A stretch of DNA of 39,847 nucleotides from Nitrospinota bacterium. GTDB taxonomy: Bacteria; UBA8248. Below, one piece after another: positions 4 to 30,468 of this stretch (within the stretch, counting starts at the first letter, position 1; every line of letters starts with the position of its first letter). The position numbers were made by a program, and so were the translations under genes. Under the pieces are notes generated by a model. That model saw only the letters and a program-made list of their open reading frames with translations, was not told where the DNA came from and did no database searches. The stretch covers positions 1 to 39,847 of the forward strand of contig VXPH01000274.1 in the NCBI GenBank assembly GCA_009839615.1, read 5' to 3'.

Positions 4-2307
4 TTATACCGCCCGGTTCTCGCCCCCGTCAACGCCCTCATCCGCGGGCGAGAGCGGCGCGTACTTCAAAACCAGCTTCCTGGGTCCCGCCTTCTCGAAC
101 TCAACGCTCACCGTCGTCCGGTCTCCGGTTCCCTCGCGCGAGCGGATGACGCCCAGGCCGAATTTCTTGTGCTTGACGCGCGCGCCGGGCGCGAACGGGC
201 CGAGCGCGGCGGGAGGTATGGCGGGCGCGCTCTTCTCTTTTTGATGCGGAGCGGCTTTCGCTTCCGCCAGAATATCGGCGTATCGCGAGTCGCCGGCATC
301 ACGCCGGCTGTCGAAACCGCGCGGGGCGCGCCTTTGCGCAGGCGCGTGATCGCCCACTTTCTTGATAAGTTCGGGCCCCAGGCCTTCCAGGAAGCGGCTC
401 GGGCGCGTCGCCCAGCTTTCCTTCTTGCCATCGGGCCGCCGCTCCCTGGCCCAGGAGAGACACAAGAACTTCTTCGCCCGCGTGACGCCCACGTAGAGGA
501 GCCTCCTCTCCTCATCGAGGGAAGCAGGATCATCCTTGGAACGACCAAGCGGAACCAGCCCCTCCTGAACGCCGACGACGCCCACGGCGGCGAATTCCAG
601 GCCCTTCGCCGCATGAAGCGTCATCAGGGAGAGCGCGCCGCTCTCGCCGGAGAGCTCATCCGCCTCGCCCATCAGGGCCAGCTCCTCCAGGAACAGGGTC
701 TTGGCCTCATCCGATTCGGGCGATACCCCCTCTTCTTCCTGTATCCGCTCCTCGAACGCGCGGGCCGCGGCGACGAACTCTTGAGCGCCCTCTATCGCAC
801 GCGCGGCGGCGCGGCGGCGTTCGACGGATGCGCTCCCTCGCATGGCCCCCTCCACCCAGGCCCGATAACCCGTCCGATCGAGAATCGCTTCGATCAGGCG
901 CGCGGGGCCCGCCCGGAACGAGGTGAGCGCCTTGAGCGTATCCAGGAGGAGCCTGAGGTTTTCCGCCGCATTGCCCCGGAGGCGGCCCTCGTTCAAGGCA
1001 GCCTCCGCATCGGCGGTCGTGACGCCGGAAGCGTCTTCCCGCGCGATGGCCTTCAGGCGCTCGGGTCCCAGCCCCCGGGGCGGGCGGTTCACGACCCGCG
1101 AAAAAGCCGCGCCGTCATCCGGCCGGATGAGCAGCCGCAAGTAGGCGGCCAGGTCCTGCACTTCGGCGCGGTCGAAAAACCGCTGACCCTTCACCACCTG
1201 GTAGGGAATCCCTCTTCTTCTGGCCGCCTCTTCGAGGGCGCGCGATTGCGTGTTGATCCGGTAGAAGACGGCCGCCTCTCCCCAGGGAATCTCACCGCCC
1301 GCTCCTGATTCGATCAAGCGCTTGATGACGGCTTCCGCCTCTTCTTCCGCGTTCGCCGCCGCCAGATAGCAGACGGCTTCCCCGGCGGCCTTGCGCGTGA
1401 AAAGGCGCTTCTCAAGGCGCGCGCCCGCTCCGCCCATGATGCGCGAGGCGAGGCCGAGTATCGCGCCGCTCGAGCGGTAGTTCTCTTCGAGACGGAACAC
1501 CCTGGCGCCTGCGAACCTGCGCTCGAAACCGAGGATGTTCTCCACCCGCGCGCCCCGCCAGCCGTAGATGCCCTGATCGTCATCCCCCACGGCGAACACG
1601 CGCCCGTGAGCGCGCGAGAGCAGGGCGACGAGTTCATCCTGGGCGGGGTTGGTGTCCTGGTATTCATCGACGAGTATTTCCTCGAAACGCTCCTGGTATT
1701 TCCGGAGAACCTCGGGATGCCGCCGGAACATTTGCAGGGGGCGCGCCAGCAGGTCATCGAAATCGACCGCGCCCACATCGCGCAGGGCGCGCTCATAGGC
1801 GGGCGTGATCTTCAGGGCAGTGGCGTCGACGCTGAAAGGAGCCGGTTCGGAATCCTCCGCCGGCGAGGTCTTGCGGCGTCCCACCTGATCCAGGACCGAA
1901 CGGGGCGGGTAGCGCTCCTCGCTGATATTCGCAGCCGCCATGCAGCGCTTCACCAGCGTGAGGCATTCCCCGCGCGAGAAGATGGTGAAACCGGGCGAGA
2001 GGCCCGCCGCCTCGGCTTCGGCTCTCAGAATCCTCGCGCACACCGCGTGAAAGGTGCCCACCCAGATGCCGCGCGCGCCCTCTTCCAGCGAGGCGAACAG
2101 GCGCTCCCGCATCTCGCCCGCCGCCTTGTTCGTGAACGTGATGGCGAGAATCCGGTTCGGCGCGAGACCCTCGGCGAGCAGGCGCAGGACGCGGTGGACG
2201 AGCACGCGCGTCTTGCCCGAACCCGCCCCCGCCAGCACCAGGTTCGCGCCCGGCGGCGCCAGGACCGCCTCTTTCTGCTGGGGATTCAGGTTTTCCAAGT
2301 AGTCCAC
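4..2307 (-). CDS. uvrD/pcrA: ATP-dependent DNA helicase, UvrD/Rep/PcrA family
   Basis: 767 aa ORF; N-term LNPQQKEAV, Walker A LAGAGSGKT, ITFTNKAAGEMRER, DEYQDTNPAQ, VGDDDQGIYGWRGA, ENYRSS, LMTLHAAKGLEF, EERRLLYVGVTRAK motifs. Confidence 0.97.
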   Translation of the reverse strand: MDYLENLNPQQKEAVLAPPGANLVLAGAGSGKTRVLVHRVLRLLAEGLAPNRILAITFTNKAAGEMRERLFASLEEGARGIWVGTFHAVCARILRAEAEAAGLSPGFTIFSRGECLTLVKRCMAAANISEERYPPRSVLDQVGRRKTSPAEDSEPAPFSVDATALKITPAYERALRDVGAVDFDDLLARPLQMFRRHPEVLRKYQERFEEILVDEYQDTNPAQDELVALLSRAHGRVFAVGDDDQGIYGWRGARVENILGFERRFAGARVFRLEENYRSSGAILGLASRIMGGAGARLEKRLFTRKAAGEAVCYLAAANAEEEAEAVIKRLIESGAGGEIPWGEAAVFYRINTQSRALEEAARRRGIPYQVVKGQRFFDRAEVQDLAAYLRLLIRPDDGAAFSRVVNRPPRGLGPERLKAIAREDASGVTTADAEAALNEGRLRGNAAENLRLLLDTLKALTSFRAGPARLIEAILDRTGYRAWVEGAMRGSASVERRRAAARAIEGAQEFVAAARAFEERIQEEEGVSPESDEAKTLFLEELALMGEADELSGESGALSLMTLHAAKGLEFAAVGVVGVQEGLVPLGRSKDDPASLDEERRLLYVGVTRAKKFLCLSWARERRPDGKKESWATRPSRFLEGLGPELIKKVGDHAPAQRRAPRGFDSRRDAGDSRYADILAEAKAAPHQKEKSAPAIPPAALGPFAPGARVKHKKFGLGVIRSREGTGDRTTVSVEFEKAGPRKLVLKYAPLSPADEGVDGGENRAV

Positions 2308-2323: not shown

Positions 2324-3100
2324 TCAGAACGGGCGATGGCCCACGCTCGGCTTGGGCGCGCGGATGAGCGTCCGCTCGGGATAGACTCCCTTGGAGACGG
2401 TCACGTTCGGCGCGACCCAGGAGCCGGGACCCAGCAGGGCGCCAGGCGAAGTCACGGCGTTGCACCCGATCTCGACGTCATCGCCGATCACGGCGCCCAG
2501 CTTCGAGAGGCCGGTGTCGATCCATTCTCCTTCTGCGCGCAAGACGATGTTTTTCACCACACCCGTTTTTTTCTCTTCTTCCGTCCTGAGTTCTAAATTC
2601 GCCAGCTTGACGCCGGCGCCCAGGTTCGCCTCCGCGCCCAGGATGCTGTCCCCCACGTAGGCGAAATGCCCCGCGTGCGCGCCGTTCAAAAAGGCGCTGT
2701 TCTTGACTTCCGTCGCATGGCCCACGACGGCGCCCGGCCCGATGAGGCAGCCGCCCCGCAGATACGCGCCGTGGCGAACCTCCGTGCCCGCGCAAAGCAC
2801 CGTCGGCCCCTTGATGACGGCGCCGGGCTCGATCCGCGCGCCCGCTTCCACGAGCAGGCCGACAGAGGCGATTTTCAGGCGCTCTCCTGTTACGAGCAGC
2901 CCCTCGCTCACCACGAGGCCCTCTTCCACCCGAAGCGCTGCGGCCCCGCTCAAAGGCGCATCGGCTTCCTCCACCAGATTCCGGACGAAATCCTCCAGAC
3001 GGCCGACCGCCTCCCAGACTTTGCACCCCTCCTCGAACAAATCCCGGTGCGGGAATTCGCCGAGCCTGCGGAAATAGGATTCAGGCGCCGTTGCGCTCAT
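2324..3100 (-). CDS. Left-handed beta-helix (hexapeptide repeat) protein resembling GlmU C-terminal / sugar-phosphate acyltransferase domain
   Basis: ORF 2324..3121; the internal ATG at 3100 gives an ATGA overlap with the upstream gene; hexapeptide-like repeats (ARIEPGAVIKGPTVLCAGTEVRHGAYLRGGCLIGPGAVVGHATEVKNSAFLNGA). Confidence 0.8.
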   Translation of the reverse strand: MSATAPESYFRRLGEFPHRDLFEEGCKVWEAVGRLEDFVRNLVEEADAPLSGAAALRVEEGLVVSEGLLVTGERLKIASVGLLVEAGARIEPGAVIKGPTVLCAGTEVRHGAYLRGGCLIGPGAVVGHATEVKNSAFLNGAHAGHFAYVGDSILGAEANLGAGVKLANLELRTEEEKKTGVVKNIVLRAEGEWIDTGLSKLGAVIGDDVEIGCNAVTSPGALLGPGSWVAPNVTVSKGVYPERTLIRAPKPSVGHRPF

Positions 3101-5028
3101 TTTCTCTGCTCCAGATACCACGCACCGAGCGGCGTGATGCTCAGACTGCCTTCATCTTCGCGAGCCAGACCGCCACGCAGAACCTCTTTTCGGATACCGG
3201 GCGCTTGAACCGGCGCGCCGAAGCGGGCCTCTGCGTCCGACTCCAGATGCGCATCGACCGCCGTAGCGTCCATTTCACACTCGCGCAAGGCCTCCAGCAA
3301 GCAGGCCTCCGCCCGCGCGCCGGGAGCGTCGTCATCCTTCATGTGCCTTAGAATCTCGCGCAACACCTCATCTCCCACGGCGCAGAGTTTCTCCTGCCAC
3401 TCCAGGGGGCCTCTCAAAACCACGCCCGTCCGGCTCTCCGTGCCTGAGTTCCTCACATAGATCGCGCCCAGCGGCCCGCCCGCCTCGTCTTCCAGGGCGA
3501 GATACATGACGCCCGCGTCATCCTCCAGAGGCGCAAAGCGCGGGGCGGCTACGCCCGAAAAGACACTCTCCGCACTCTCCATGAGCCTGGCTGCGACCGC
3601 CTCCCATGCCGCAGCGCCCGGCGCGAAGCGGCTCCGCTCCACGTGGTAGGCATAATAAGACCTCTTGAATCCCCTGGGAAACGGCGCTGCGACCGCCGCA
3701 TACGCTTCTTCGGGTTCCGCCTCTTCAAAAAGGCTCCGCACCGCGGCGCAGGTGTTGAGGAAACTCTTGAGACCGTCTCCCGCCGCGAATTTCCGCCCTT
3801 CGCCCACCGCATTCACGAGCAGGCCCGGCGCAATCGTGTGGCCTGATTCCTCGCCCCCCAAGGCGAAGCGATCCCCCCATTTGCGCGCCTCGTTCAAGAT
3901 CCACTTATCCCCCACGGGGGTGAAGACGACCCGAAGCCCCACCTCATTCAGGGCCGCCGCCGCGCCCGCGTCGCTCTCTATCGTGAGGGCGGCGGCGCCA
4001 TCTTCGGGCAGTTCACCCTCTTCTTTAAGGAAACGGGCTTGGAAGACGAGCGCGTCGTCCCCGTCGATGACGTGAAGCGCGTCTCGATGCGGATTGTAGA
4101 CGAGGGCGCAGCCCCTGTCGCCATCGGCGTCCAGGACGCAGGCCGCCGCCAGGCCGTCGCCTCGTTTCAGTTCTTCGCGCCGCGCGCGGCCCGCCTCAAA
4201 CAGCGCCCGCGCGCCCGCGTGGCCACTGAGGAAACCGGCGTCTTCTCCCTCGATGACGCGCCTGCCCTCGAGCGCGACCACGCCGCCGTTCTCGTTCACG
4301 CGGCCATCGCCCAAAGCGTTCACCTCGCACACGCTCAAGGGGTTAAGCTCCTCCAGGACCTGCGCGGCCAGCCCGCTCCAGGCCCCCGCCGCCGGGTCCA
4401 CCACGAGGCTCCACCGGGCGAGATCGCCCTCGCGCAGCCAGCAGTTGGGAAGCCGGGTGACGTAATCCAGGTAAAACGCGCGCGCCTCGGCGGCCGCTTC
4501 CACGCCGTGTCCGCTCTCGGGCGTCTGCTCCACCGCGCTCCACTCGCTCGCCCAGACGCGGGCGCTCAACGCCGCATCCTCATCCGGGAGGGGCTTCATC
4601 GAATCGGGGGACAAAAGGATTTTCACGCCGTTCTGATCCGCGGGATTGTGCGAAGCGGTGAGCACCACCGCGCCTGCCGCACCCACGCCCGCCAGATAGG
4701 CGGCCGCCACAGGCGCGGGCATCACCCCGAGCGAGAGCACATGCGCGTCCGCGCGCAGGAGACCGTTCACGCAGGCGGAGGAAAAATCCCCGCCCACGTC
4801 CCTTGGGTCCCAGGCCAATACCACCGCCGCGGGGGAAATGAGCTTCTCGGAGGCCCTCTCCAGAAGCCATTTGCCGGCCTCGAAGACGTAATGCTCGACG
4901 AACCGCGGCGTCAGGACGCCGTTTTCCACAAAGACCGTGCGCGGGTCGCTACCCGAAGCCTGGGGGTGATCCTCACCTGCGGCGAGTCCGCGGACCCCGT
5001 CCGTTCCCTGAAACTTCGCGTTCGGCAT
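3097..5028 (-). CDS. Phosphohexomutase, GlmM/phosphomannomutase-like, with C-terminal extension
   Basis: 643 aa from MPNAKFQGTDGVRG; catalytic TASHNP, metal loop DADGDR, sugar loop GGEESGH, phosphate loop RNSGTESRTGV. The upstream part of the 1255 aa ORF (to 6864) is out-of-frame glmS. Confidence 0.9.
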   Translation of the reverse strand: MPNAKFQGTDGVRGLAAGEDHPQASGSDPRTVFVENGVLTPRFVEHYVFEAGKWLLERASEKLISPAAVVLAWDPRDVGGDFSSACVNGLLRADAHVLSLGVMPAPVAAAYLAGVGAAGAVVLTASHNPADQNGVKILLSPDSMKPLPDEDAALSARVWASEWSAVEQTPESGHGVEAAAEARAFYLDYVTRLPNCWLREGDLARWSLVVDPAAGAWSGLAAQVLEELNPLSVCEVNALGDGRVNENGGVVALEGRRVIEGEDAGFLSGHAGARALFEAGRARREELKRGDGLAAACVLDADGDRGCALVYNPHRDALHVIDGDDALVFQARFLKEEGELPEDGAAALTIESDAGAAAALNEVGLRVVFTPVGDKWILNEARKWGDRFALGGEESGHTIAPGLLVNAVGEGRKFAAGDGLKSFLNTCAAVRSLFEEAEPEEAYAAVAAPFPRGFKRSYYAYHVERSRFAPGAAAWEAVAARLMESAESVFSGVAAPRFAPLEDDAGVMYLALEDEAGGPLGAIYVRNSGTESRTGVVLRGPLEWQEKLCAVGDEVLREILRHMKDDDAPGARAEACLLEALRECEMDATAVDAHLESDAEARFGAPVQAPGIRKEVLRGGLAREDEGSLSITPLGAWYLEQRK

Positions 5029-5042
5029 CGGGGGGAGCGCCC

Positions 5043-6866
5043 TCAGGCGACGGTGACGGACTTCGCCAGCGCGCGCGGCCTGTCGACGTCGCGCTTGAGC
5101 GCCACCGCGATGAAGTAGGCCAGCAACTGCCCGGAGACCATGTGCAGGAAGGGCGCGAGCAGGGGGGAGACCCTGGGCAGCACGATCTCCTCGCTGAACA
5201 GGCCCTCCACCACCTCGTCTCCCTCGAAGCGGTAGCCCAGCACGAAGCCGCCGCGCGCGCGGACCTCCTCCGCACTGCTCCTGGTGAGCGCGTGGAGTTC
5301 GGCCTCTTCGGGCGTGGGCATCAGGACGATGGTGTACATGTTCTCGTCGATGAGGGAGATGGTTCCGTGCTTGAGGAATCCCGCGCTCATCCCCTCCGCG
5401 TGGAGGTAGGTGACTTCCTTCATCTTGAGCGCGCACTCGAGCGCCGCGGGGTAATAGATGCCCCGGCCCAGGTAGAGCCAGTTCTTCATGTGCTGGTGCG
5501 CGTTCGCCGCAGCGTGGAAATAACCCGAGCGTTCGTTGAGCGTCTCGAGCACGAGGTCGGACAGGGAAGCGACCTCCTCTCTCAGCGACGCCACTTCCGA
5601 CTCGCTCAAGCGCCCCGTGAGCAGGCCCAGCTCCATCGAGGCGAGCAGCAAGATAACCGCCTGGCTCAGGGCCGTCTTGGTGCTGATGACGCACTTTTCG
5701 GGTCCCGCGCCCTGGAGAATCGGCACGTCCACCGAGCGGACGAGGGTGGAGCCCATCATATTCACGATGCCCGCCGTCCTGGCGCCGCTCCCTTTTGCAT
5801 GGCGCAGGGCGCTCAGCGTGTCGTAGGTCTCCCCCGACTGGCTGATGGCGCAAAAGGCGTCCTCGGGGCCGATTTCCGCGATGTGGGCAAACTCGTCCGT
5901 GCTGACGACGGGCAGAAACCTCCCGCCCAGGCGGCTGAAGAAGTACTGCCCCATCGACGCGATGTAATAGGTCGTTCCCACGCCGCCCAGGAAGCACTGG
6001 CGCGATTCGTGAATCATCCCGGCCAGGGCCTGGACATCTCCCCTGGGAATCTGGAGGGCGGCCTGAACGGTGGTGGGCTGATCGTAAATCTCCTTGAGCA
6101 TGAAATGGGGATACCCGCCCCGGCGCGCCTTCTCCGCGTCCCACTCGATCTCGGTGACTTCCTTGTCGACGCGCTCTCTGGTGAGCAGGCTCTTGACCGC
6201 ATAGCTCTCCGGCGTGATGAGCGCGTATTCGCCGTCTTCCATGATGATCGCCCGGCGGGTGAACTCGAAAAACGCGCTGAAATCCGACCCCACGTAGTTG
6301 GCGTCGTCCCCCAGTCCGATGATGAGGGGCGATTCGCGCTTCACGCAAAAAATCCGGCCCGGCGCGTCTATCGAGATGACCGCCAGGGCGAAGGTGCCCT
6401 CGAGCTCGTCGATCGCCTCGACGAAGCCCTCCTCCACGTCCTGGCCGTTCCGCGCGATTTTCTGCGCCACGAGATGCGCGATGACCTCGGAATCCGTCTC
6501 GGAACGGAACGCAGCGCCTTCGCGCGCGAGTTTTTCCCTGAGTTCCTTGTAGTTCGAGATGATGCCGTTGTGGACCACGGCCAGGCGGCTCTCGTTGTCC
6601 GCGTGGGGGTGCGCGTTCGCCTGCGTCACCCCGCCGTGCGTCGCCCAGCGCGTGTGCGCGATGCCCACCAGCCCCTTCATGTCCGTGAAGCGCTCGAGAG
6701 AATTCACCGCCTCCACGGTGCCCACGTTCTTGCGGATGTCTATCGCCCCGTTTCTCTGGACGGCCATGCCGCAGGAGTCGTAGCCGCGGTATTCCAGGGC
6801 GGCGATCGAGCGCAGGAGCTTCTGCGAGACGTTCGTGCCCGCCGCCATGCCCGCGATGCCGCACAT
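5043..6866 (-). CDS. glmS: Glutamine--fructose-6-phosphate aminotransferase (isomerizing)
   Basis: Starts MCGIAGMAAG (N-terminal Cys nucleophile at Met17 of the listed ORF), GIAHTRWATHGGVTQANAHPH, SIS domains, C-term RALAKSVTVA. Confidence 0.97.
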   Translation of the reverse strand: MCGIAGMAAGTNVSQKLLRSIAALEYRGYDSCGMAVQRNGAIDIRKNVGTVEAVNSLERFTDMKGLVGIAHTRWATHGGVTQANAHPHADNESRLAVVHNGIISNYKELREKLAREGAAFRSETDSEVIAHLVAQKIARNGQDVEEGFVEAIDELEGTFALAVISIDAPGRIFCVKRESPLIIGLGDDANYVGSDFSAFFEFTRRAIIMEDGEYALITPESYAVKSLLTRERVDKEVTEIEWDAEKARRGGYPHFMLKEIYDQPTTVQAALQIPRGDVQALAGMIHESRQCFLGGVGTTYYIASMGQYFFSRLGGRFLPVVSTDEFAHIAEIGPEDAFCAISQSGETYDTLSALRHAKGSGARTAGIVNMMGSTLVRSVDVPILQGAGPEKCVISTKTALSQAVILLLASMELGLLTGRLSESEVASLREEVASLSDLVLETLNERSGYFHAAANAHQHMKNWLYLGRGIYYPAALECALKMKEVTYLHAEGMSAGFLKHGTISLIDENMYTIVLMPTPEEAELHALTRSSAEEVRARGGFVLGYRFEGDEVVEGLFSEEIVLPRVSPLLAPFLHMVSGQLLAYFIAVALKRDVDRPRALAKSVTVA

Positions 6867-6867
6867 G

Positions 6868-8073
6868 CTAGTTCTCTCCCCTCGGATAGGTGTAGTGATG
6901 CGGAACGACTTCACCGGGCGGGATGACGGTGCCCGAGGCCAGGGTGTTCGAGGCGCCGACTTGCGCCCCGTCGCCCAGGAAGGAACCCACCTTGTCGAGG
7001 CCCGAATCGACCATTCCCTCCGGCATGCGCACCGCGATGGGGGCCTGGTCGAGGTTCTGGATCAGCGTCAGCGTACCCGAACCCACCACGGCGTCCTCGC
7101 CGACCACGCTGTCGCCCACGAAGGAGAGGCGCCCCACGCGAACGCCGTTGAACAGGATGCAGTTCTTGAGCTCCACGCCGAAGCCGATGGTCGCGTTCGC
7201 GCCGATGGCCGTATAAGGGCGCACCAGAACCCCGTTCCCCAGAAAGGTGTTCTCCCCGATGAAGCACGGTCCGAAGATGGAAGCGCCCGATTCGATCACC
7301 ACGTTCTTCTCGATCACCACCGGGCCGCGAAACTGCACCGCGCCCCTGAGCCGCACGCTGCCGTCCACGCGGGCCTCGCTCCAGGTGTCCATGACCATCC
7401 GGTTGCCCTTGAGCAGGTCCCAGGGATGCTGGGCGTCCAGCCAAGGCTCTTCCCAAATCGAGGAACGCAGCCCCTCGCCCGCGCACAATTCGTTGAGCGC
7501 CTCGTCCATCTCGAGTCGCTCGAGCAAATCGAACAGCCGGGAGGGCATGACGAACACGCCGGCCAGAACGTAATTGCCCACCTCGCGCTCCACGGGCTTT
7601 TCCACCAGGCGCTCAATCTGCATATCCTTGCCGAGATAGACCGTGCCGTAGTTCTGGGCATGGGGCGTATGGCAAATCGCCGCCACGGGCTGATGAAAGG
7701 TGCCGAACGCCTGCACGACCTGGCGGTACATGTTCTCGGACGCCAGCACGTCCGCATAGACCAGCAGAAACGACTCGTCTTCCTGAAAGTGGCCCTTCGC
7801 GAGGCTGATGGCGTCCCGGATTCCCGTGGGTTCGTCCTGGCGGATGTATTGAATCGTCATCCCGTAGCGCGAACCCTGGCCGAATTCGTTGATGATCCTG
7901 TCGGCGCGGTGACCGACGACGACGACGAGGTCGCTCACGCCGGCGGCACGTATCTTTTTCAGCGCCGAATGCAGGAGCATCTCGCCCGCCATCGGCAGCA
8001 TCGCCTTGGGCCGGGTATTCGTAAACGGATACAGACCAGCCCCTCGGCCGGCCGCCAGAATCAATGCTCTCAC
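6868..8073 (-). CDS. Sugar-1-phosphate nucleotidyltransferase with C-terminal left-handed beta-helix domain
   Basis: 401 aa; MRALILAAGRGAGLYPFTNTRPKAMLPMAG signature; hexapeptide repeats in the C-terminal half. Confidence 0.9.
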   Translation of the reverse strand: MRALILAAGRGAGLYPFTNTRPKAMLPMAGEMLLHSALKKIRAAGVSDLVVVVGHRADRIINEFGQGSRYGMTIQYIRQDEPTGIRDAISLAKGHFQEDESFLLVYADVLASENMYRQVVQAFGTFHQPVAAICHTPHAQNYGTVYLGKDMQIERLVEKPVEREVGNYVLAGVFVMPSRLFDLLERLEMDEALNELCAGEGLRSSIWEEPWLDAQHPWDLLKGNRMVMDTWSEARVDGSVRLRGAVQFRGPVVIEKNVVIESGASIFGPCFIGENTFLGNGVLVRPYTAIGANATIGFGVELKNCILFNGVRVGRLSFVGDSVVGEDAVVGSGTLTLIQNLDQAPIAVRMPEGMVDSGLDKVGSFLGDGAQVGASNTLASGTVIPPGEVVPHHYTYPRGEN

Positions 8074-8162: not shown

Positions 8163-8433
8163 CGGGGTTGTTGAAAAACCCCCGATTTCATGATTCGGCG
8201 CATGGAACCGACCAACGAGAGAGAAAAGATCCACAATACCGATTGAAGAATGAGGGATTGTTCCGACCGGAGGGGGAGAGTTTGCGGTTTTGCGTAGGGG
8301 CGGCCCCCCGTGGCCGCCCGTATCGAATATGCCCATTCCCGCGTGGTTGCGCTTCGCATGGACAGGCACGGGGGCCTGTCCCTACAAACTCACTGCTTGC
8401 AGGAGCCCCTACGGACTTTTCCAACAAACCCGA
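8163..8433. repeat. Intergenic compound palindromic repeat (site 1)
   Basis: CGGGGTTGTTGAAAAACCCCCG at 8163-8184; GTAGGGGCGGCCCCCCGTGGCCGCCC arm at 8294-8321; inverted GGACAGGCACGGGGGCCTGTCCCTAC arm at 8360-8385; inverted CTTTTCCAACAAACCCG right end near 8415-8433. Confidence 0.75.
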
Positions 8434-8453: not shown

Positions 8454-9215
8454 TCAGCCCTCGAGTTTGCGTTTCTCGTGGATTTCCTGCGCCCGGCGCA
8501 AGTCCGCCTGCGTGTTCACGCCTAGCGCCTCCTCGGGCGACGCCAGATCAAGGCCTTGGACAACGCGGCCCCCGGCGCGCGCGATCGGGAAAACGTCGGG
8601 CAGGTAGAATTCCCCCTGGTTGTTCTCGTCCCTGATCCTCGGCAGGGCGGCTCGCAGGAAAGCGGCTTCGAAGACGTAGGCGCCCGTGTTGATCTCGGTA
8701 ATTTTCTTCTGCGCCTCCGTCGCGTCCGCCTCTTCCACCACGCCGATGAGTTCCGCCCCCTCGCGCAGGGTGCGGCCATACCCGTGCGGCTCCCCGGCGG
8801 TGGCCGTGAGCATGGTGGCCGCCGCGCCCGCTTCCTCATGGATGCGGGCCAACTGCCTCAAGGTGGCGGTTCGTATCAGGGGCGCATCGCCGCACAGGAG
8901 ATATAGATGCTTCGCCTCGGCGGGCAGGCCGGACAAGCCCACCTCGGCGGCATGGCCCGTGCCGCGTTGCTCCTCCTGAACGGTGAAAACGACTTCCGCG
9001 TCATCACCGGAAAACGCCGCCTGAACATCGCGGGCCTGATAACCCACGACGATGACGACGGGCGCGGCGCCCGCCTCTCTCGCGGTTGTCACGACGTGGT
9101 GGATCATGGGCTTTCCGCCCACGGGATGCAGCACTTTTGCCAGCGGGGATTCCATGCGCTTGCCCTGGCCCGCCGCAAGGATGACGGCGGCGAACCCATC
9201 GCCTCGACGCGCCAA
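8454..9215 (-). CDS. UDP-N-acetylglucosamine pyrophosphorylase-like, GlmU N-terminal domain only
   Basis: 253 aa; AAVILAAGQGKRMESPLAKVLHPVGGKPM, QEEQRGTGHA, CGDAPLI, GYGR, EINTGAYVF, NNQGEFYLPDVF; ORF stops before any beta-helix domain. Confidence 0.9.
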   Translation of the reverse strand: MARRGDGFAAVILAAGQGKRMESPLAKVLHPVGGKPMIHHVVTTAREAGAAPVVIVVGYQARDVQAAFSGDDAEVVFTVQEEQRGTGHAAEVGLSGLPAEAKHLYLLCGDAPLIRTATLRQLARIHEEAGAAATMLTATAGEPHGYGRTLREGAELIGVVEEADATEAQKKITEINTGAYVFEAAFLRAALPRIRDENNQGEFYLPDVFPIARAGGRVVQGLDLASPEEALGVNTQADLRRAQEIHEKRKLEG

Positions 9216-9220
9216 AGAAT

Positions 9221-10609
9221 TTATCTCCGGCGGGAGGGAGAAGACTTAGTGAGGCCGAATTCCAGGAGTTTTCTCCTGAGCGTGTTGCGGTTCATGCCCA
9301 ACAGGCGCGACGCCTGCACCTGGTTTCCGCCCGCTTCGCGGAGCACCAGTTCGAGCAGGGGCTTTTCGACGCTGCGGATGGTGTGATCATAGAAGTCGCT
9401 TCTCTCCCCGTCGCCCAGGGCGGTGACCACCGAGGAGAGCCTCTCGCGGAAAAAGCCCTCGATGTCGCCGCCTCCCCCTCTTCGGGGAGAGGGGCTTAAA
9501 TCATCGAGTGAAATCGAGTTGCCCTCGCTCACGAGGAAAGCGCGGCATACGGCCATCTCGAGTTCGGACTCGTTACCCCACCACTTCTGCCCACAGAACC
9601 ACTCCATCGCCGCCGGCGTGATCCGCCTCCTCGGCTGCCCGATGCGGCTCGAGAATTCATCCAGAATCCCCTGGGCCACGAGCGAAATGTCCTTTTTCCT
9701 CTCGCGCAGCGGGGGAATCTTGATGAAACAAGTCGTTTCCTTCCGGTACAGACGCTTGAGAATCGTATCCTGTATCAGCCTTTCAGGATCGTGCGTGCAC
9801 CCGAATATCACCCGAAACTCCGGCGAGAGGCTTTTTTTCCTCAAAACCCCGGCCAGCGCCTTCTGGTGGTCCCTCCCGATGAGCTGGGCGTCCTCGATGA
9901 AGAGCGTACCCCCCTTCTCGACGACGTCCCCCTCTTCGCCACGCTTCTCTTCCATCCGCTTGATGGCTTTCTCCAGCACCGAGGCGCGCCGCATCTTCGG
10001 CCCCCAGTGCAGGAACGGGTGCCGCGTCCCCGGATACTGGGAATGGAGCGCGCGGGCAACGAGCTGAAAATTCAACCCCTTCTCCCCCTCCAGGAGGATG
10101 GAGCGGTATTTCTGCCCCGCAAGCTGAATCGAACGCCGGAGCCTCTCGGCCGCAGCGCTCGTTCCCTCGAACCGCCATCCGCCGGACTCTTCCCTCGCCT
10201 CGGTGCGAAGCCACCTGAGTTCCCGGCGAAGATTTCCCTCCTCGTTCAGGGTGCGTGAGAACTGGAACACTTCCTCGGGATGCACTTCGTCGACGAAAAC
10301 GGCCCGCGCGCCCGAGCGGATGCTCAAGGGCGTGAACCCCTTGTCCTCGGGGCGCAGCACCGCGGCGAAAGGCTTGCCCGTCTCCGCGATTCTCCGCATC
10401 GGAGCCGCCTCGGCGGAGCCGGCCGCCCCGTAAAGAATGAAATCGCACCAATTCGTGTGCGCGCGCGCTTTGTGGGGAGTATCGAAATACAGCGTCTCCA
10501 TGCCGATGCTCCGCAAGCCGCCGAGCAAACCCTCTCTTTCCGGCGTCATGTGGCCTACGAAGAGCGCCCTGGCGCGAATCGCTTCCTTGTCGATTGCTTT
10601 CACCAGCAC
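9221..10609 (-). CDS. NtrC-family-like regulator with degenerate AAA+ domain and C-terminal Fis-type HTH
   Basis: 462 aa; GGTLFIEDAQL (Walker B-like), IPPLRERKKDISLVAQ, WWGNESELEMAV, C-term EAGGNQVQASRLLGMNRNTLRRKLLEFGL. Walker A replaced by GEKGLNFQ; no GAFTGA loop. Confidence 0.85.
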   Translation of the reverse strand: MLVKAIDKEAIRARALFVGHMTPEREGLLGGLRSIGMETLYFDTPHKARAHTNWCDFILYGAAGSAEAAPMRRIAETGKPFAAVLRPEDKGFTPLSIRSGARAVFVDEVHPEEVFQFSRTLNEEGNLRRELRWLRTEAREESGGWRFEGTSAAAERLRRSIQLAGQKYRSILLEGEKGLNFQLVARALHSQYPGTRHPFLHWGPKMRRASVLEKAIKRMEEKRGEEGDVVEKGGTLFIEDAQLIGRDHQKALAGVLRKKSLSPEFRVIFGCTHDPERLIQDTILKRLYRKETTCFIKIPPLRERKKDISLVAQGILDEFSSRIGQPRRRITPAAMEWFCGQKWWGNESELEMAVCRAFLVSEGNSISLDDLSPSPRRGGGGDIEGFFRERLSSVVTALGDGERSDFYDHTIRSVEKPLLELVLREAGGNQVQASRLLGMNRNTLRRKLLEFGLTKSSPSRRR

Positions 10610-10615
10610 ATGCCC

Positions 10616-10921
10616 TCAAAGCATCCGGAAAACCGGCCCGGTATCCGAAAGACCGGAAAAAATCACTTTGCCGCCGATGGACGGCTCGCTTTCGTCATCA
10701 TCCGCCAGGCGGGCGAGAATGCGCCCCCCCTCTTCCAGTTCGACCAGAGCGAGCAGATAGGGCGTCGGCATCCCCCGGGCTCCCATGTGAACCGATGAGA
10801 AGCTGTAGACGATGCCCCTCCCCGAGGCCGGCCGCTCTTCCATCTCGGCGCCGCAATGCCCGCAGCGCTCCGATTGTTCCAGATAAATCCGACCGCATCC
10901 GGCGCAAACGAACGTCTCCAT
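10616..10921 (-). CDS. DUF35-type Zn-ribbon/OB-fold protein (thiolase partner)
   Basis: 101 aa; CAGCGRIYLEQSERCGHCG zinc ribbon followed by a short OB-like region; adjacent to thiolase gene. Confidence 0.85.
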   Translation of the reverse strand: METFVCAGCGRIYLEQSERCGHCGAEMEERPASGRGIVYSFSSVHMGARGMPTPYLLALVELEEGGRILARLADDDESEPSIGGKVIFSGLSDTGPVFRML

Positions 10922-13456: not shown

Positions 13457-13645
13457 GGCCGCGGAACCTTCTAGTAGAGAATGCAGCGAGCAAACCCGTC
13501 CCGCACCCCACAACTCGTATTCAATTTGCTGACGAAAGTCCCGGAAAGAGACACCGGAGAAAATAGCACACCAAAGAGTGGCGCGCAAGAAAGTGTTTTT
13601 TCAAAAGAACTTCACTATCGTCCCGCCAGGCCCGGCGCGGGGAGT

Positions 13646-15686: not shown

Positions 15687-16118
15687 TTGTTCGGAAGCAT
15701 CGGGATGACGGAGTTGATCGTGATCATGGTGGTCGCCCTGATCGTCATCGGACCCAAGCGTCTGCCGGAGTTGGCCCGCACGCTCGGGAAGGCCCTGGGC
15801 GATTTCAAGCGCGCCACGTCGGATTTCCAGAACAGCTTCAGCATGGAAGACGACTACGATCTCGACGTGCTCGACGAGGAAACAAAGGAGAAGGATAAAA
15901 CAGCAAGCGCCGAAGAATCAGCCGAAGACGATGCCGACCAAGACCACGACGACGAAGGCGACGCGGCGGAGCAAACCGCCGAACCGGACCAGACCGAAAC
16001 GGACGAACCCGCGCCCGAGGCGGACGACACTGCGCCTGAGGCCGAGGCCACCGCCACGGAGAGCGAAGCGGCTGAGGATAAGACCGGGGCCGCACGAGAG
16101 GACGACAAGCAGACGTGA
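15687..16118 (+). CDS. tatA/tatB: Sec-independent protein translocase TatA/TatB family, long acidic tail
   Basis: TTG start preceded by GAGGAGA; MFGSIGMTELIVIMVVALIVIGPKRLPELARTLGKALGDFKRA; followed directly by tatC. Confidence 0.93.
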   Translation: MFGSIGMTELIVIMVVALIVIGPKRLPELARTLGKALGDFKRATSDFQNSFSMEDDYDLDVLDEETKEKDKTASAEESAEDDADQDHDDEGDAAEQTAEPDQTETDEPAPEADDTAPEAEATATESEAAEDKTGAAREDDKQT

Positions 16119-16882
16119 GCGGCGATTCTTCCATGCCCCTCACCGGGCACCTGACAGAGTTGCGCAACAGAATACTCTACATCCTGGGCACGATTCTCGT
16201 CGTGTTCGTGGGCGCCTATTATTTCTCGGGCGAACTGCTGACCCTCATGCAGCGCCCCATCGCGGGCCAGAAACTCGTTTTCCTCTCGCCGACGGAAGCG
16301 TTTTTCGCGCACATCAAGGTCTCGTTTTTCGGCGCAGTGTTCATCAGTCTCCCCATCATCCTGTTCCAGATTTGGCGCTTTTGCGCTCCGGGGCTGATGG
16401 ACCGCGAGAAGCGCTACATCGTGCCCTTCGTGTTCTTCTCGACGCTGAGCTTCATCATCGGCGCCCTTTTCTGCTACTTCCTGATTCTGCCTTACGGCCT
16501 CGCCTTTCTGTTGAGCTTCGCCACCGAATCCCTGACGCCGCAGATTTCGATAGGATTTTACATCTCCTTCGCCTTCAAGCTCATCTTTACGTTCGGTCTG
16601 GTGTTCGAGGTGCCGATCGTCACCATTCTGCTCGTGCAAATCGGCGTCATCACGCCCGATTTCCTCTCGAAAAACCGCGGGTACGTCATCGTCGGCGCAT
16701 TCGTCATGTCCGCCCTGCTCACGCCGCCCGACGTGGTGACGCAGGTGTTCCTCGCAGGCCCCGTCATCGTGTTGTTCGAGATCAGCATCATCGTCTCGAA
16801 AATCATCATGAAGCGGAAGAAAAAGCGCCAGGAGGAGCGGGAAAAAGAATGGGAAGACGACGAAGACGATGATTCGGATTAG
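16115..16882 (+). CDS. tatC: Sec-independent protein translocase TatC
   Basis: 255 aa, GTGA overlap with upstream tat gene; PLTGHLTELRNRI, FLSPTEAFFAHIK, FGLVFEVPIV, TPPDVVTQ. Confidence 0.97.
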   Translation: MSGDSSMPLTGHLTELRNRILYILGTILVVFVGAYYFSGELLTLMQRPIAGQKLVFLSPTEAFFAHIKVSFFGAVFISLPIILFQIWRFCAPGLMDREKRYIVPFVFFSTLSFIIGALFCYFLILPYGLAFLLSFATESLTPQISIGFYISFAFKLIFTFGLVFEVPIVTILLVQIGVITPDFLSKNRGYVIVGAFVMSALLTPPDVVTQVFLAGPVIVLFEISIIVSKIIMKRKKKRQEEREKEWEDDEDDDSD

Positions 16883-17060
16883 CGCATCGCGCGCACCCCG
16901 CCCCTGGTGGCGAATCCTGCCCGCATACACGAAGGAAAAGGCCTCTTGAGTTCCTCGGATTCTCGCGGCGACATAGTCCCCGCCGATAGAATCATCTGCG
17001 CTTTGGACGGACCCGCGCCGCCCGAATCCCGCGCGCCATCCGGATAAGCGGCGATTCGCC

Positions 17061-17342
17061 ATGAAAGAAGAGACGCGGCGGATCCGCCTCATCATCCGTG
17101 GCCGGGTGCAAGGGGTATGGTACCGGGGCAGCGCGCAGGAAATCGCCCGTGAACTCGGCCTCACCGGATGGGTGAGAAACCTAAGCGACGGGAGCGTGGA
17201 ACTGGTCGCCGAGGGCGAGCGTCCCGCACTCCATGCCCTCAAGGCCTGGTGCCGGGAGGGGCCGCCGCTGGCGAGAGTCCATGACGTCCTGGAGGAGCAA
17301 TTGACGCCTTGCGGGGAACCGGCCGCCTTCGAGGTGCGCTGA
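17061..17342 (+). CDS. acyP: Acylphosphatase
   Basis: 93 aa; [42 protein letters not shown]. Confidence 0.95.
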
Positions 17343-17346
17343 AGCC

Positions 17347-18246
17347 CTAGATGCCTGCGAATCCGGTCCAGAAGATGAGGTAGGAGGAAATGGCGTTCAG
17401 GTAGTTCGAGATCAGCAGAACGCCCACGAGCAGAAGCATGGCGCTGCTCGCGATTTCGACTCCGCGGAAATAGCTCCGGAACGACTGGTAGAACCGGAAG
17501 AAAAAGCCCACGCACAGTCCGCTCAGGAGAAACGGAATGCCCAGGCCGGCGGAATAGCTCGCCAGCAGAACGACGCCCTGGCCCGCCGTTTGATGCGTTC
17601 CGGCGAACAGAAGAATGCTTCCCAGAATCGGGCCGACGCAGGGCGTCCAGCCTGCGGCGAAGGTGATGCCGACCATCATGCTGCCGAGCCAGCCTGCGGG
17701 CTTGCTCTTCAGCATGATGCGGTTCTCCGAGGAGAGCACGGGCGCGAAAACGGCCACGAACACGTAAAGAGCGGCGGCCGTGAGCACCCCGCCCAGCGTG
17801 GGGTAGCCCATTTGCAGACCTACCAGCCCCGCCAGGAAAACCAGGGCGGCGAACGCGCCGCTCACGCCAACCGGTTTTTCGGAGAAAAACCCCTGAATCC
17901 TGAAATCAAAGGCCCTGTCGCCGACGTAGAGGCCGAACATGGTGATCAGGATGCCGCCCAGCAGCCTGATGTGATCCTGATACTGAAAGAGTATGTTGCC
18001 CACAAAAGACACGCTGGCGCCCAGCAGGACGAAGACGATGGAAAACCCCGCCACGAAGAACAGGGAATTCACCAGAATGACGCTACGAACGCGGGCGGCC
18101 TCGCCGCTCTCTCTGATTTCCTCATAGGACAAGCCGGTAAGATAGGAAAGGTAGCTGGGAACCAGCGGGAGGATGCACGGGGAGGCGAAACTGAGCACCC
18201 CCGCCGCAAAAGCCAGGCTCAAGGACACATTTTCCGGGGCCATCAT
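17347..18246 (-). CDS. CcdA/DsbD-like cytochrome c biogenesis membrane protein
   Basis: 299 aa; LSFASPCILPLVPSYLSYLTGLS and AGWTPCVGPILGSILL paired-Cys membrane motifs. Confidence 0.93.
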   Translation of the reverse strand: MMAPENVSLSLAFAAGVLSFASPCILPLVPSYLSYLTGLSYEEIRESGEAARVRSVILVNSLFFVAGFSIVFVLLGASVSFVGNILFQYQDHIRLLGGILITMFGLYVGDRAFDFRIQGFFSEKPVGVSGAFAALVFLAGLVGLQMGYPTLGGVLTAAALYVFVAVFAPVLSSENRIMLKSKPAGWLGSMMVGITFAAGWTPCVGPILGSILLFAGTHQTAGQGVVLLASYSAGLGIPFLLSGLCVGFFFRFYQSFRSYFRGVEIASSAMLLLVGVLLISNYLNAISSYLIFWTGFAGI

Positions 18247-30269: not shown

Positions 30270-30279
30270 TTGAACTTGC

Positions 30280-30362
30280 AAGTTCGCTGGGGGTGCCTTG
30301 CAGGCTGAGAACAAACCCTTCGAACCTGAACCGGTTAGCGCCGGCGTAGGGAAGCGACAGGT
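30280..30362 (+). ncRNA. TPP riboswitch (THI element)
   Basis: GGGGGTGCC...GGCTGAGA...ACCCTTCGAACCTGAACCGGTTAGCGCCGGCGTAGGGAAG directly upstream of thiC. Confidence 0.97.
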
Positions 30363-30468
30363 CTTCCACATCCTCTGGTTTCCCTTCGCCACATGTGAAT
30401 AAAGAGAGTTCATCGCAGGGGGAAAACTTCATCCTCCTCCAGTATGAAACAGGTGGATTCTCATCTGA

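Follow-up and report, generated by a model that had tools for sequence, protein, structure and literature searches.

NtrC-like proteins that work independently of sigma54 are already known. The NtrC proteins of Caulobacter and Rhodobacter capsulatus lack the GAFTGA loop and act at sigma70 promoters; they require a phosphorylated Asp residue and ATP, with ATP binding needed in R. capsulatus and the Walker A and Walker B residues in Caulobacter (PMC10274813). FleQ of Pseudomonas is ATP-independent at sigma70 promoters and has a phosphorylation-incompetent receiver, while retaining Walker A, ATPase activity and a sigma54 mode (PMC10723142). VpsR from Vibrio, an NtrC-family protein that works with sigma70 RNA polymerase, depends on c-di-GMP (PMC9303241). 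An NtrC-type tie to glmS is known from E. coli, namely the QseF-GlmY-glmS route (PMC6075780, PMC7073468).

Domain architecture and motif losses of REG

REG, as we call the degenerate NtrC-family regulator described here, is encoded in a window of 39,847 nucleotides, the whole stretch of DNA that was analysed. The gene and its domains are:

9221..10609 (-): REG, degenerate NtrC-family regulator, 462 aa, GTG start
10256..10573 (-): pseudo-receiver domain (aa 13-118), with GH/G/P/D in place of DD/D/T/K
9707..10168 (-): pseudo-AAA+ alpha/beta subdomain (aa 148-301), which lacks the GAFTGA loop and the second pore loop
10061..10087 (-): dead Walker A, aa 175-183 (GEKGLNFQL), Lys position occupied by Phe181
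9485..9706 (-): AAA+ lid subdomain (aa 302-375), sensor II GNESEL
9245..9463 (-): Fis/NtrC-type dimerisation and HTH domain (aa 383-455), the part of REG that is best conserved

Three Pfam domains scored above the cut-off, Sigma54_activ_2 (PF14532; residues 149-301, E 7.5e-13), AAA_lid_14 (PF25601; 302-375) and HTH_8 (PF02954; 411-451), and the best PDB profile match is the NtrC-family protein 4l4u. The AAA+ fold of sigma54 activators, the lid and the Fis-type HTH of the NtrC family are hence all present, the last of these as predicted by an earlier, sequence-only reading of the gene. The HMM searches against Sigma54_activat and Response_reg proposed in that reading gave a weak match (E 1.7e-4) and no Pfam match, respectively. 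In a profile-profile comparison, the first ~120 residues of the REG orthologues matched 22 canonical receivers with 91.7% probability, compared with 0.1-3.9% for 20 column-shuffled control profiles. A receiver fold is thus detected, while the residues for phosphorylation are absent: none of the 15 orthologues keeps the acidic pair, the phospho-acceptor Asp, the Thr or the Lys of the active site, all five being replaced. By this comparison the N-terminus is a pseudo-receiver, which bears out the earlier description of a receiver-type fold without an obvious phospho-acceptor pocket.

The motifs of the 15 aligned orthologues were compared with those of 22 canonical relatives, which keep nearly all of the catalytic residues and loops discussed here. 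Within Walker A, G-E-x-G is invariant in the orthologues, and the Lys is replaced by Phe (14/15) or Ile (1/15). Walker B reads GGTLFIEDAQ in REG, with ED instead of DE in most orthologues. The GAFTGA loop is deleted in all 15 proteins, as are 9 residues in the region preceding sensor I (second pore loop). None of them keeps either Arg finger or the sensor II Arg, other residues having taken their place, and GNVREL has become GNESEL in REG. The structural landmarks GGTLF, PPLRER-KDI and W-GN persist. None of the features tested for a functional sigma54 enhancer-binding protein (Walker A, GAFTGA, Arg fingers, sensor II Arg) is therefore found in REG. From what is established for this protein family, remodelling of sigma54 is not expected without nucleotide binding or either loop. 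The sequence-only reading had recognised the degenerate motifs correctly (Walker A GEKGLNFQ, GGTLFIEDAQ, no GAFTGA, GNESEL), and its view that ATP binding and sigma54 contact have been lost is supported by the absence of the needed residues and loops from all aligned orthologues; the second pore loop and both Arg fingers are two losses that it had not listed. Judged from its sequence, REG is a three-domain scaffold, in which a pseudo-receiver and a pseudo-AAA+ domain are joined to an intact Fis/NtrC-type DNA-binding domain. Its C-terminal 77 residues align with residues 21-97 of Fis (profile E 1.8e-12); Fis consists of the DNA-binding part alone, whereas REG retains the dead NtrC body. A structure model of REG (AlphaFold, six close sequences) was too poor to be used, with a mean pLDDT of 48 and a pTM of 0.29.

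The hexosamine locus, its conservation and its origin

The genes flanking REG are:

10616..10921 (-): OB-fold protein of the ChsH2_C/DUF35 type, upstream of REG by 6 nt
8454..9215 (-): stand-alone uridylyltransferase domain of GlmU, without the acetyltransferase domain; REG lies 5 nt upstream of it
6868..8073 (-): archaeal-GlmU-like sugar-1-phosphate nucleotidylyl/acetyltransferase (NT_hexa)
5043..6914 (-): GlmS (TIGR01135, 602 bits at 5049-6863), masked by an overlapping out-of-frame ORF
3097..4990 (-): GlmM-like phosphohexomutase, start approximate
2324..3121 (-): hexapeptide acetyltransferase-like protein
4..2307 (-): UvrD/PcrA helicase, whose gene follows glmS in genomes outside the phylum too

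Since its genome has no full-length GlmS match other than this one, and none of the 18 phylum genomes yielded a full-length bifunctional GlmU, this is probably the main hexosamine operon of the cell. A separate GlmM match is present on another contig (C252) of the same genome. A reading of the 1255-aa ORF (3097-6864, -) as a two-domain mutase was discarded, since only its C-terminal, GlmM-like half is real coding sequence and the other half runs out of frame across glmS. Calling of the longest ORFs would mis-annotate both glmS and the GlmM-like gene. Between the glmU and nucleotidyltransferase genes lies an insert of ~270 bp (window 8170-8420), which is absent at two orthologous loci (L039 and L040) and contains repeat-like stems, GGGACAGGC...GCCTGTCC and GGGCGGCC...GGCCGCCC. 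Elsewhere in the window, an Rfam scan found a TPP riboswitch (30279-30369, +, 71.4 bits) and nothing else, and an ORF of 553 aa (15854-17515, -) without a Pfam match is in pieces in relatives and possibly represents more than one gene.

REG orthologues are found in 16 of the 18 phylum genomes, 15 of them whole and one split over two contigs, with the same gene order in all. REG is missing from two assemblies with a completeness of 79% and 67%, in which neither a strong glmU match nor a full-length glmS was found. Whole orthologues score 690-818 bits, compared with 185 bits for the best outsider, and no member of the family was detected among 368 genomes outside the phylum. Downstream, the order REG, GlmU_N, NT_hexa is seen in every phylum genome whose contig reaches that far, and on longer contigs glmS, the glmM-like gene, the hexapeptide protein gene and uvrD come next. 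DUF35, thiolase and AMP-ligase genes lie upstream of REG in most genomes; neither a thiolase nor a DUF35 match was found at the locus in G011 and G013. The glm neighbourhood first noticed from the GlmU-like gene is thus real and conserved, and it is larger than had been noted.

The whole-protein dN/dS of REG is 0.09-0.33, mostly 0.1-0.3, and no stop codon or frameshift was found in any complete copy. Constraint is usually strongest in the Fis domain, with comparisons involving L039 (0.42-0.65) as the exception, and the identity of this domain across genera is 62-75% versus 31-42% for the pseudo-receiver. REG is therefore under purifying selection and reflects neither chance nor decay. The same holds for the motif losses, as they are common to all 15 aligned orthologues, and the strong conservation of the Fis domain is an argument for DNA binding as the function that the protein has kept.

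Intact NtrC genes, usually accompanied by a gene for an NtrB-type kinase, occupy the corresponding position in several genomes outside the phylum. The gene order is HK-NtrC-GlmU-GlmS followed by the start of UvrD in G048, NtrC-GlmU-GlmS-UvrD in G231, HK-NtrC-GlmU-GlmS in G090, HK-NtrC-MetH-GlmU_N-NT_hexa-GlmS in G104 and NtrC-MetH-GlmU-NT_hexa-GlmS in G049. Walker A and GAFTGA are intact in G048, G090, G104 and G049; the NtrC of G231 is cut by the contig end, with Walker A out of view. In two genomes outside the phylum (loci L118 and L157), NtrC is separated from glmU by a methionine-synthase-like gene. In most other close NtrC relatives, a kinase is present and no glmU is seen in the flanks. 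The NtrC (NR-I) of an NtrB-NtrC pair beside glmU-glmS has the same receiver-AAA+-HTH order as REG and the same position upstream of glmU, and the HTH sequence GNQxxAAxxLGxNRNTLRRKL is common to both. Unlike this NtrC, REG has no phosphorylation site, Walker A Lys, GAFTGA, second pore loop, Arg fingers or sensor II Arg, nor was a kinase match found at the loci of its family. The shared gene order is best explained by common descent, because it includes the unusual NT_hexa gene and uvrD.

The orthology of REG to the glmU-linked NtrCs rests on this synteny. In one tree, the REG family falls inside an NtrC-type clade (99/91), with low support for its sister relation and a stem of ~2-2.5 changes per site; it is not placed beside the glmU-linked NtrCs, and a clade forced with them was not rejected (p-AU 0.07 and 0.09). 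The tree agrees with common descent without demonstrating it. A tree that included the paralogue L003 put it beside the REG family, a placement taken as a meeting of long branches, and was rebuilt without it. L003 (G000:C47:19917-20615), a second NtrC-like paralogue in the genome that encodes REG, likewise lacks GAFTGA, keeps the Walker A Lys (GERGTGK) and is encoded on the same contig as rpoN.

Proposed mode of action and rival explanations

We consider it probable that REG is a former NtrB-NtrC response regulator at a hexosamine locus, which now acts as a DNA-binding regulator independently of sigma54 and ATP. Its ancestor would have served as response regulator in an NtrB-NtrC system whose genes lay directly upstream of glmU-glmS. 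The kinase gene would have been lost from the locus in this phylum, and we infer that this came first and the motif losses after. Next to go would have been the phosphorylation site of the receiver and, in the AAA+ domain, nucleotide binding, hydrolysis and both pore loops engaging sigma54 and DNA. We further infer that REG persists as a three-domain scaffold that binds DNA, most likely as a dimer, and acts at sigma70-type promoters without ATP, with the hexosamine (UDP-GlcNAc) operon in which it lies as a probable target. REG may also be under the control of a ligand or partner and be tied to UDP-GlcNAc supply, as suggested in the sequence-only reading.

A sigma70 mode would be expected from the motif losses and by analogy with the described precedents, including VpsR. 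The NtrC proteins of Caulobacter and R. capsulatus share with REG the deletion of the L1 loop and its expected sigma70 mode, whereas REG is without sites for phospho-Asp and ATP. FleQ resembles REG in its phosphorylation-incompetent receiver, and Walker A and the c-di-GMP motif LFRS are found in FleQ only.

A promoter-like sequence, TTGCGC-N17-TATTTT, with an imperfect dyad (GCGCGCC-N7-GGTGTGC) in its spacer is located upstream of the gene array:

13560..13588 (-): candidate promoter and dyad

It is conserved within the genus, was not seen in other genera and also scores terminator-like; the dyad may be a terminator or due to chance. No REG binding site common to the genera was found, including among dyads upstream of the AMP-ligase gene, and nothing convincing resembled the NtrC-type operator TGCACC-N5-GGTGCA in the window or orthologous loci. 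The sigma54 promoter TGGCAC-N5-TTGCW matched 5 times, fewer than the 13 expected by chance, and a sigma70 consensus scan gave no match. rpoN is present in these genomes, and sigma54 itself is thus retained.

One might instead speculate that REG still binds a nucleotide or small molecule, such as a nucleotide sugar or c-di-GMP, in a remodelled P-loop cleft and regulates sigma70 promoters in response to that ligand, much like FleQ or VpsR, which provide precedents. The invariant G-E-x-G and the almost constant Phe at the Lys position indicate a loop that is conserved and not drifting, and the operon yields UDP-GlcNAc precursors. However, of the FleQ c-di-GMP residues (LFRS, R185/N186, ExxxR), LFRS is absent from REG, where aa 145-149 read WRFEG, and Ala takes the place of N186, which follows the post-Walker Arg in FleQ. 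Binding of c-di-GMP in the FleQ manner was set aside on reading the missing LFRS motif, and we regard ligand binding in the cleft as a whole as possible, if rather unlikely. The idea that REG senses hexosamine status through this cleft and controls UDP-GlcNAc synthesis, as a metabolite switch that works without ATP and a surviving intermediate on the way from NtrC to Fis, is an unlikely one that we put forward as speculation.

REG could also be an inactive subunit or decoy, which joins or competes with intact enhancer-binding proteins and thereby dampens sigma54 transcription. The same genome encodes rpoN and three other NtrC-like proteins, two of them with full motifs, and landmarks of the AAA+ fold persist in REG. 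Yet both of its subunit-interface faces are altered by the loss of Walker A and of the Arg fingers, making entry into a hexamer unlikely, and REG shows no link to the genes of the intact paralogues; we judge such a role very improbable. That REG is a pseudogene on its way out, as its extreme loss of catalytic motifs might suggest, is hardly credible given complete copies free of stops and frameshifts, a dN/dS well below 1, phylum-wide occurrence and a fixed locus. None of the 15 aligned orthologues inside the phylum has the intact motifs that would make this gene a one-off decaying copy, which the sequence-only reading had named as a refutation.

Significance for the NtrC family

Of ATP binding and phosphorylation, the NtrC-like proteins cited above that lack only the sigma54 loop have kept one or both, but the REG family has lost all of these together while remaining under selection at one locus. 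We found no description in the open literature of a family that spans a phylum, is devoid of receiver, ATPase and sigma54 functions at once, and has an intact counterpart at the same locus elsewhere. Nor did we find there a report of NtrC-type systems tied to glmU-glmS beyond the QseF-GlmY-glmS route, as our results suggest. Morett and Bork are said to have proposed that Fis arose from NtrC, and REG bears on this proposal. As an intact, ancestor-like NtrB-NtrC pair is encoded at the same locus in other phyla, the REG family allows a direct comparison of a motor-dead enhancer-binding protein before and after its losses.
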